DNA of 42,644 nt from NCBI GenBank assembly GCA_003962895.1, contig RXKI01000023.1:1-42644 (forward strand), read 5' to 3'. The position numbers and the translations under genes were made by a program. The notes beneath the pieces are model-generated. The model did no database searches. It was given only the letters and a program-made list of their open reading frames with translations, and was not told where the DNA came from. Shown here piece after piece: positions 2,356 to 40,551 of the stretch (positions are counted from its first letter, which is position 1; every line of letters starts with the position of its first letter). The stretch is from Neisseriaceae bacterium (lineage in GTDB: Bacteria; Pseudomonadota; Gammaproteobacteria; Burkholderiales; UBA11063).

Positions 2356-3582
2356 ATGAAATTAAATAAATTATTAGTATCACTAGCTCTAGTGGCTACA
2401 GGTTCAGTTATGGTTGCTTGTGGTAGTGGTTCAACTGGTGGAAACTCAAATCCAGCTCCATCTGTTACACAACTTGAACCTCCATATGGAGCTGAGATCC
2501 CTCCTGGTTCTACTACTGGTGTTGCTGTAAATTTACAAGATGGTATAATTGCTGTGCCTAGTCAAGGTGAATACACTGCAATTCAATTAACTGCTGATCA
2601 AACAAAGTCTTTGATTCAATTTATGGGTCTTGGATCTCAATTAGAAAGCTTTGTGTTTAATCCGAGTGCCAATGGTAATGTTGTGGTTTATCCACGCGAT
2701 ATTGGACCTAACGGTTCGGTATTGTTAATTAGTCCAACTACTCAAAATACACAAGGTAAATCTTTAAAAAGTTTAAGCGCTACTATGTTGGTATATGCTC
2801 TTAGGAATTACACAGGATTGTCACCAATTACTCCAGTAGAAACAAGTGTTGGTAGTTCAGCTAAAGTTAATGGAATTATGTATGGAATTTCTGACCCACT
2901 TACATACACTCAAGGACTTACTTTGAGTGTTCCTAGTGCTCATATAAATATTCCGGTAAATAATTGTGCTGGCGCTACTGGTGGGGTGATATCAGCAGTT
3001 GCATATAAATTTAACGGCGTTGATTATGTTGGTTACGGTACCGATACAGGTTCTGTTTGTGTTGCATCTGGTGGTTCTATATCACAAGAGAATTTATCAG
3101 CAAAAGCTCCAACAACAAATGCAAATGCTTATTTACCTGCTCCTGTAACTAATTTAGGTTTTCCTACGCAAGCAAGTACAACAAGTAACTTAGTTGGTTA
3201 TTGGACTAATGAGAAAGGTATTTTCAAAGTATTTGGTAAATATAATGCTAAAAATGAGCCTACAGGTACTGGTTTCCTAAATGTTACATCAACAGAACCT
3301 CAAAAACAAAATGGCACTGCACAAACTACTACATTTAGTGGCAACATTCCGACGGTTACTAATATTAACTCAACTTACACCGATCCAAATGGTAATTTAT
3401 GGGTTGGTGTTAAGACAGGTGGTCAGGTTTATGTTTTACGTAATGGTCAAACAGCTTGGCGAGTACAACAAATTAAGTATATTACAGGTCAGGTTTATAC
3501 TGGTAGTGTAACTGTACAATCTGATGGTGCGAACCAAGGTGGCGTTGCAGTAACTAATGCTGGTACATTTGATATTGAATAA
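2356..3582 (+). CDS. Putative lipoprotein of unknown function
   Basis: The chosen ATG at 2356 has an AAAGGA ribosome site at 2344-2349 and begins a classic lipoprotein signal peptide (MKLNKLLVSL...). The lipobox-like MVAC has its lipidated Cys at residue 22. The frame stays open 37 codons further upstream, but that part lacks a signal sequence and a ribosome site. The 408-residue product is rich in Gly, Ser, Thr and Asn, and a low-complexity GSGSTGGNSN linker follows the Cys. Two further Cys residues (in NNCAG and GSVCVA) could form a disulfide. The C-terminal part repeats short strand-turn units with NGN and TGG turns, suggesting beta structure. I do not recognise the family. It is followed by a strong terminator and then by an outer-membrane barrel gene on the same strand, so the two may serve the same surface. 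Function is unassigned. Confidence 0.8.
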   Translation: MKLNKLLVSLALVATGSVMVACGSGSTGGNSNPAPSVTQLEPPYGAEIPPGSTTGVAVNLQDGIIAVPSQGEYTAIQLTADQTKSLIQFMGLGSQLESFVFNPSANGNVVVYPRDIGPNGSVLLISPTTQNTQGKSLKSLSATMLVYALRNYTGLSPITPVETSVGSSAKVNGIMYGISDPLTYTQGLTLSVPSAHINIPVNNCAGATGGVISAVAYKFNGVDYVGYGTDTGSVCVASGGSISQENLSAKAPTTNANAYLPAPVTNLGFPTQASTTSNLVGYWTNEKGIFKVFGKYNAKNEPTGTGFLNVTSTEPQKQNGTAQTTTFSGNIPTVTNINSTYTDPNGNLWVGVKTGGQVYVLRNGQTAWRVQQIKYITGQVYTGSVTVQSDGANQGGVAVTNAGTFDIE

Positions 3583-3601: not shown

Positions 3602-3631
3602 AAAAGTGAACATTTAAATGTTCACTTTTTT
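3602..3631 (+). terminator. Rho-independent terminator after lipoprotein gene
   Basis: A perfect 28-base palindrome (3602-3629) with arms beginning AAAAGTGAACAT is followed by T residues. It lies 20 bases after the lipoprotein stop codon. The arms are symmetric in A and T, so it could also work on the other strand. Confidence 0.85.
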
Positions 3632-3703: not shown

Positions 3704-5227
3704 ATGAAAAAACCTTTATTATTGATAGTATCACTGCTAACAAGCCAATATGCCATAGCTGAGACAAACAATCAACCATTTCAACAGCTAGATAATACAA
3801 TAGGTATCGGATATAGTTTCAACTCAATGGACGCATATAATCCAAATAGCTCAAAAAGTCAAATAACAACCAATACAAGCAATTTCGTTGCGCACATCGA
3901 AAGATTATTTGATAATAATGTTTGGATGTCAATTGATGGCAGCTTTGCTTTTAAAGCTAACCAATATGGTAATGCAAGCACCGGTTTTAGCTATAATACT
4001 CAAAACTTTGGGTTCCCTGCATCAATTAGTGGGAAAGGCGGTTATTCTTTTAACTGGCCTAACATTGGATTACAAGTAATCCCTTATGCACAAATTGGCC
4101 GTGAATTGAATTATAATGGTATGGATGTTTTAAATAACGGTTTTGACAAAAGTTATCTAAATCAATTTGCATTTGGTGGCAGAATAGAATATTTATTTAC
4201 CACGCAATCAAGTATTTATTTCGACCAATCAATAGGGTATTTACAAGATCCTAATACAGGTGAATATAATCAGAGTGCCAATAATTTTATTAGTTTGCTT
4301 GGAATAAAATACAATGCCACTAATTCATTTCAAATAGCACTGCAAGGGATGATAAACCAAATTAACTTGATAAATGCAGATGTAATTAACTATGACCCTA
4401 TTAGTTACCAATATGGTAATACAAGTCAAACAACATATGGTGGCATGTTATTATTTAGCTATTTATATGACCAGGATAAATTATTTAATAATGGAAATAT
4501 TAATTCAATATCTACGAGTAAATATCCACATCTAACAACAAATTTTGACAATAGCTATTCAGTAGGTTTAGGTTTAGTAAATTCTACAGCTTCATATGAT
4601 GTTGGAAATAAATCAGATATTAACTCATCACTAAACTATCTCAATTTCAATATTACTCATGAATTTGAAAATAATGTATGGTCGCAGATCAACGCACAGC
4701 TGGTAAACTCAATAAGCCAATCAAATACTCCAACTGGTCGTACTAGTGCAATTACGCCAACTTATATTGGATTCCCAGGTAATGTAGTCACAAATGATGG
4801 TTATGCTTTTCACGGTGGAGGTAATTTTACCGTTATTCCTTATGGAAACTTTGGCGTCATAATGAATATCGCAAGTTATAACATTAAAGATAACTCAGGG
4901 CTTACAAGTGCAGTATCAAATGATATGTATATACAATATGGCGCAGGAGCACGTGTAGAATATGCTATAAATGACTTTTGGCAAATATATGCCGATCAGC
5001 TATTCGCAGGAATGAAAGATCGCTCGCCATTAGATATTAATGCATTTCGCTCAACTAGCAGCATAGGTGCAATAATAAACCCATATTCTCTTCTACAATT
5101 TGGAGCAAAAGGTTTTTATGATTCTATCAACCCAACAAATAGTACATACAACGCACAGTCAAATACATATGTACCAGCAAATCAAAACTCTCTTGGATTG
5201 CAATTAGACATTGGGCTAAGGTATTAA
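3704..5227 (+). CDS. Outer-membrane beta-barrel protein with tandem duplicated halves
   Basis: The 507-residue product has a Sec signal peptide (MKKPLLLIVSLLTSQYAIA, cut after residue 19). The rest alternates polar and aromatic residues in strands split by Asn/Ser/Gly turns, as in Gram-negative outer-membrane barrels, and it ends in an aromatic residue (LRY). Residues about 30-258 and 282-507 are homologous: FDNNVW (69) matches FENNVW (321), GFP (103) matches GFP (356), VIPY (125) matches VIPY (377), GGRIEY (158) matches GARVEY (415), and IYFDQ (171) matches IYADQ (428). The offset stays at 252-257 residues. I infer either one large barrel formed by duplication or two small barrels in tandem. 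No specific porin or transporter family is recognised. The ribosome site is weak. The gene lies between two strong terminators and so is probably transcribed alone. Confidence 0.82.
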   Translation: MKKPLLLIVSLLTSQYAIAETNNQPFQQLDNTIGIGYSFNSMDAYNPNSSKSQITTNTSNFVAHIERLFDNNVWMSIDGSFAFKANQYGNASTGFSYNTQNFGFPASISGKGGYSFNWPNIGLQVIPYAQIGRELNYNGMDVLNNGFDKSYLNQFAFGGRIEYLFTTQSSIYFDQSIGYLQDPNTGEYNQSANNFISLLGIKYNATNSFQIALQGMINQINLINADVINYDPISYQYGNTSQTTYGGMLLFSYLYDQDKLFNNGNINSISTSKYPHLTTNFDNSYSVGLGLVNSTASYDVGNKSDINSSLNYLNFNITHEFENNVWSQINAQLVNSISQSNTPTGRTSAITPTYIGFPGNVVTNDGYAFHGGGNFTVIPYGNFGVIMNIASYNIKDNSGLTSAVSNDMYIQYGAGARVEYAINDFWQIYADQLFAGMKDRSPLDINAFRSTSSIGAIINPYSLLQFGAKGFYDSINPTNSTYNAQSNTYVPANQNSLGLQLDIGLRY

Positions 5228-5230
5228 GTT

Positions 5231-5262
5231 AAAAATCACTCATATTAATATGAGTGATTTTT
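5231..5262. terminator. Bidirectional terminator between barrel gene and rho
   Basis: A perfect 32-base palindrome (arms AAAAATCACTCATATT) starts 3 bases after the barrel stop and ends 6 bases before the rho stop. It has A/T tracts on both sides, so one hairpin can end transcription of both converging genes. Confidence 0.88.
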
Positions 5263-40092: not shown

Positions 40093-40551
40093 AAGGTAAA
40101 TAATTTTGCGAAGTGGGCAACTGATCTAAAAGACAATAGGATGCAAACTGTATTTTATCCAACAGTTGCCAAAGAAAATTTATTTAAAGAAGATTATATA
40201 GCGTACAAATCTGGGCATAGTCGTGGTAGTACCGTGGACTTAACAATAGTGCCATTAGATAGCAAAATTCCGTCAATTAATCCAAATAAAAAATATGCTG
40301 AATGTGCTACGGATGCCAAAAATCGTGCACCAGATAATAGTCTTGATTTTGGTACAGGATTTGACTGCTTTAGTCCAATTGCTCACCCAGAATACCAAAA
40401 TGTTTCGCCACAGGTAAAAGCAAATCGTTTATTACTTGCAACACTTATGCAAGAAGCTGGATTTAAAGCGATTGATAGTGAATGGTGGCATTTCACATTA
40501 AAAAATGAGCCATATCCAGATACGTATTTTGATTTCCCTGTAAATAAATGA
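40093..40551 (+). pseudogene. Truncated D-Ala-D-Ala dipeptidase (VanX/DdpX-like), 5' part missing
   Basis: The C-terminal part of a VanX-type zinc dipeptidase is intact. The zinc ligands are His26 and Asp33 (SGHSRGSTVDL) and His117, with the catalytic Glu114 in SEWWHF, numbered from the ATG at 40141. The closing motif EPYPDTYFDFPV is also present. Recognisable homology begins earlier in the same frame, at NNFAKWATDLKDNRM (40099-40143), with no start codon. An in-frame stop lies at 40057-40059. The N-terminal 80 or so residues of the family are missing, including the Arg of the DGYRP motif that binds substrate. The ATG at 40141 has no usable ribosome site. I conclude this is a decayed gene; expression of a short protein cannot be excluded. 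Confidence 0.8.

Follow-up and report, generated by a model that had tools for sequence, protein, structure and literature searches.

A doubled barrel gene and its surroundings

The window, by which we mean the whole 42,644-nucleotide stretch of DNA that was analysed, carries a single uninterrupted ORF (3704..5227, +) that runs from ATG to stop, encodes 507 aa and probably specifies a two-barrel outer-membrane protein. The product begins with a putative signal peptide (residues 1 to ~20, MKKPLLLIVSLLTSQYAIA; 3704..3763, +), and a hydrophobic N-terminal stretch was seen by inspection to be common to the orthologues and to the single-unit relatives described below. Two putative barrel units, each with ten predicted strands, make up most of the remaining protein, the N-terminal one at residues 23-255 (3770..4468, +) and the C-terminal one at residues 279-507 (4538..5224, +). 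The linker between them (residues 256-278; 4469..4537, +) has no hydrophobic signal segment and is modelled with pLDDT <50 at residues 258-273; the linkers of the orthologues measure 20-27 residues, and no second signal peptide was seen in their sequences. The last strand of the C-terminal unit, LDIGLRY, terminates in an aromatic residue (Tyr) and is conserved in the orthologues. Both a signal-like N terminus and an aromatic C-terminal strand can thus be read in the double.

The initial annotation had noticed short landmarks recurring in the two halves at offsets of 252-257 residues, and the residue positions confirm this exactly: FDNNVW at 69 is matched by FENNVW at 321, GFP at 103 by GFP at 356, VIPY at 125 by VIPY at 377, GGRIEY at 158 by GARVEY at 415 and IYFDQ at 171 by IYADQ at 428. 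When the whole protein is compared with itself without gaps, the best diagonals likewise lie at offsets 252 and 257. The internal duplication proposed from these landmarks was borne out when residues 1-272 were aligned with residues 273-507 by BLASTP (E=3e-10, 45.1 bits; 204 columns at 26% identity). Half against half, the Smith-Waterman score was 166, the highest value among 2000 shuffles being 91. The two halves of the 507-aa protein are homologous, and the self-alignment and the shuffle comparison together establish that the duplication is real and extends over nearly the whole of each mature half. The window protein had no Pfam or NCBIfam match up to E=1. The suggestion that it belongs to no named family therefore stands for the double, but not entirely for its single-half relatives, some of which weakly match Pfam OMP_b-brl.

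Directly upstream lies a lipoprotein-like gene with a VMVAC lipobox-like motif (2356..3582, +). Searching the genus for the neighbouring genes by tblastn, we found it next to the double only among the closest relatives, five in number. It has a weak Pfam Reg_prop match that falls below the cut-off, and a second copy is present elsewhere in the same genome (G000:C47). A consensus scan placed one terminator-like hairpin between this gene and the barrel gene (3602..3629, +) and another, of 14 pairs, just past the stop codon of the barrel gene (5231..5262, +); four such hairpins were found in the region, compared to 1.5 expected in shuffles. With hairpins both before and after it, the double gene is probably transcribed alone. 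Since the two genes adjoin in the closest relatives alone, with a terminator-like hairpin between them, we set aside the upstream gene as a partner of the double and make no claim of partnership. Elsewhere in the window, an ORF of 136 aa (40141-40551, +) resembles by eye the C-terminal region of a D-Ala-D-Ala dipeptidase and may be truncated at its start.

Orthologues and free-standing single units

The genus sample comprised 23 genomes, and the family-level sample contains this genus alone. A double orthologue, full-length or at a contig edge, was present in 11 of the 23 genomes, and some member of the family in 22. Among genomes at least 90% complete, 8 of 11 have the double; the single-contig genome G017 is without it. 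The 10 further orthologues are full-length or nearly so and share 41-67% identity. Each half of the double matches the profile of a barrel family of ~235 aa that also occurs as stand-alone genes. The N-terminal unit scores 1e-67 and the C-terminal unit 3.3e-73, and the profile recovers both halves in 11 of 11 orthologues, each at ~1e-66 or better, together with 40-odd single-half genes; these E-values are not independent, as the recovered sequences also trained the profile. An alignment-based scan gave 13 loci, and a degenerate-pattern scan built from the single protein found nothing.

A profile search for single-half homologues had been proposed in the initial annotation, and it found them as stand-alone genes in nearly every sampled genome of the genus. 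We analysed 47 such genes, of ~250-290 aa, most of which are complete with their own signal peptide and an aromatic C terminus, the terminal strand being GLTY-like. They often occur in tandem, with four in L033 and six in L036, and the genome of the window has one, on another contig. Long frames of 515-603 aa that might have been taken for independent doubles were ruled out, as stop codons divide each of them into separate, adjacent single genes. At two places (L031:4268-4272 and L032:6769-6773) the stop codon of one single gene abuts the ATG of the next (TAAATG), an arrangement close to fused.

Pfam OMP_b-brl (PF13505) matches 18 of 39 single units at E<=0.1, the best at 7.2e-9; the first member scores below the curated cut-off (14.7 versus 28.7 bits). 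Among the 11 doubles one match was obtained (E=0.34), and the window protein gave none. A search of PDB sequences with the single-unit profile returned no match up to E=1, and no relative was found in viral contigs or plasmids. Beyond the genus, 300 sampled genomes from the order and 369 from the class yielded only weak matches, to distant barrel proteins of other families (best E ~4e-6). Within the sampled genomes, the double gene was found only in one genus of uncultured water bacteria; the UBA11063 lineage has been reported from treated water, with 35-37% GC (PMC7118179). The genus also has shorter barrel proteins, 222 aa long (L101:1212-1877 and L102:1385-2050), which have the FQxFxN start motif in common with the family and seem to be distantly related to it.

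Structure models, history and rival readings

The AlphaFold2 model of the full-length protein, built from the alignment of 11 orthologues, is of moderate confidence (pLDDT 71, pTM 0.48) and places ten strands in each half, at residues 32-254 and 284-506. Both halves are therefore predicted to share one and the same ten-strand pattern, and not to have different folds, the outcome that the initial annotation had named as evidence against its proposal. The modelled C half (residues 274-507) is most similar to the Neisseria adhesin OpcA (Z 19.1, rmsd 2.8, 198 residues aligned); next, at Z 16-18, come OmpT-type barrels (OmpT itself at Z ~16.6) and the Legionella Dot/Icm porin I. The model of a single-unit relative, from 17 sequences, reached pTM 0.73 with ten strands and an OpcA Z of 17.9. 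The C half and the single-unit relative are each predicted to be a closed, OpcA/OmpT-like ten-stranded barrel. Among the matches listed for the N half (residues ~25-255), one for each entry, were EstA, a COG4313 channel, FapF and OmpW, at Z 9-11, all closed barrels with strand numbers other than ten; the N half may close into a barrel of its own, but this is moderately supported at most and less certain than closure of the C half. We infer that the pTM of 0.48 would be near the value for two well-formed, equal halves whose relative position is not fixed.

In a maximum-likelihood tree of 69 units, the N halves form one clade (100/99), the C halves another (100/98) and the single units a third (100/99). 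The separation into three clades, each with 100% bootstrap, shows that the double arose a single time and that its halves then diverged. The branching of the double genes agrees with the RpoB tree in well-supported groups and the absences are scattered, a pattern that fits one early gain and several later losses, although some absences may be assembly gaps. In the single-contig genome, RpoB itself is found in two overlapping pieces (G017:C1:2734583-2738700), which suggests a frameshift error of assembly. One probable loss can be followed in L061 (G001:C98), where a lone C half with an internal stop codon occupies positions 2171-2860 and no N half lies upstream. This C half nests in the C clade beside L057, suggesting a decayed double and secondary loss; for the same reason we rejected it as a single gene that predates the fusion. 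The end of an apparent lipoprotein gene lies upstream of it. In the closest pair of doubles (L055/L056), dN was 0.044 against a dS of 1.51 in the N half and 0.033 against 1.09 in the C half; saturation of dS leaves the other pairs as no more than indicative. With dN far below dS in both halves, both are kept at the protein level.

The initial annotation had left a choice between a large barrel that arose from a small one and two joined barrels. The former would require the two halves to open and merge into one barrel of ~20 strands, the free-standing ten-stranded type of the ancestor being still present in the same genomes. Such a merge is topologically possible, since an even number of strands in each half keeps both ends periplasmic, and it has a counterpart in engineering: Arnold et al. 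(2007, cited in PMC6340704) reportedly obtained a functional pore by tandem duplication of OmpX, whose units are eight-stranded. That construct resembles our gene in the tandem doubling of a small barrel within one chain, but here the units are natural, ten-stranded and, in the models, apparently stay separate. The top whole-model Foldseek E-values do go to larger porins and receptors, yet these superpose badly on the model (TM 0.15-0.28, rmsd 16-26), whereas the C half alone fits closed ten-stranded barrels at 2.8 Å over 198 residues. The pTM of the full-length model suggests two bodies without a fixed relation, and single-unit relatives are predicted as stand-alone ten-stranded barrels. We therefore regard the merged barrel as unlikely; if true, it would be a natural and datable case of a large barrel made from a doubled small one. 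The models favour two joined barrels, with the reservation already given for closure of the N half.

How the two barrels came into one chain is a separate matter, and one reading compatible with the joined barrels is that already diverged tandem paralogues were fused and no duplication took place inside the gene. Diverged paralogues do lie side by side in the tandem arrays of L031, L033, L036 and L037. In the unrooted tree the N, C and single clades meet at one point, with long branches of 0.8 changes per column to the N clade and 0.5 to the C clade. Neither half groups with any single unit, however, and rooting with two distant barrel proteins of the genus makes the N and C clades sisters, though weakly (82/18). 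With so weak a root, in-gene duplication and fusion of diverged paralogues are inseparable here, and we hold the latter as a tentative possibility that falls somewhat short of an even chance. If true, the halves would have had different jobs from the start. That two neighbouring single genes were read as one through an error of assembly or frame might be entertained, given that spacing by nothing but a stop codon exists in the genus and that the assemblies derive from metagenomes. The same uninterrupted double frame in 11 genomes, the linker without a signal peptide and the two clades that the halves of the doubles form for themselves make this reading negligible, and we consider it refuted by the orthologues.

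Proposed origin, known systems and meaning

We consider it likely that the chain forms two ten-stranded barrels, a small outer-membrane protein having become a fixed dimer once in the genus. One origin, homologous halves, free-standing single relatives and two predicted ten-strand units make two joined barrels the simplest reading. A single-barrel gene present in two copies, head to tail as is still seen in relatives, would have become one frame, with loss of the second signal peptide at fusion; the single genes spaced by TAAATG in two genomes make this a plausible route. The chain would then be exported through Sec by its N-terminal signal, inserted by BAM through its aromatic last strand, and folded as two consecutive ten-stranded barrels joined by a flexible periplasmic linker of 20-27 residues. 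The resulting two-barrel unit may do the same basic job as the single proteins, as an adhesin-like surface protein or a narrow channel. The likeness to OpcA suggests the adhesin-like role, although a shared fold shows no function.

Multi-barrel outer-membrane proteins carry more than one complete barrel domain per chain, through lineage-specific fusion or amplification. Solan, Pereira, Ben-Tal and co-workers reportedly surveyed them in PNAS in 2021 (cited in PMC11494523). Such chains have repeated origins in separate lineages. The remark in the initial annotation that barrel duplications inside one gene are uncommon has to be softened on that account; what it said of a duplication in this gene is correct. 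Our protein resembles these proteins, GfcD included, in having more than one barrel-sized unit in one outer-membrane chain. In GfcD the two barrels differ in size, with 12 and 13 strands, and a periplasmic domain separates them (PMC11494523), whereas here the halves are homologous, predicted as 10 + 10 strands, separated by a short linker alone and confined to one genus.

Likenesses of the individual units were found with several known barrels. OpcA (PDB 2vdf, 1k24), a ten-stranded barrel, is the best structural match of both the C half and the single-unit relative, but identity is 8-12%, no Pfam match was obtained and OpcA is a single barrel, pointing to a shared fold and not to family membership. 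The omptins OmpT and Pla share the ten-stranded fold (Z ~15-18 with the predicted models); the window protein differs in having no Pfam match, and no histidine occurs in invariant or nearly invariant columns of the singles or the doubles, indicating that the catalytic His of omptins is absent. The relation to OMP_b-brl lies in the matches to 18 of 39 single-unit relatives, and the difference in the lack of one to the window protein.

The double is probably a new, lineage-restricted addition to the multi-barrel outer-membrane proteins, a clean case and not an unprecedented one, and current views are not overturned, since the repeated emergence of multi-barrel chains is already known. Extant genomes of the genus show a series of stages, namely single barrels, tandem arrays spaced by a stop and a start codon, the fixed double that resulted from fusion, and a decayed double of which the C half is left. 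The genus therefore offers a good small system in which to study how multi-barrel outer-membrane proteins arise, whether each of their barrels remains closed, and what leads to a fixed dimer being retained or lost.
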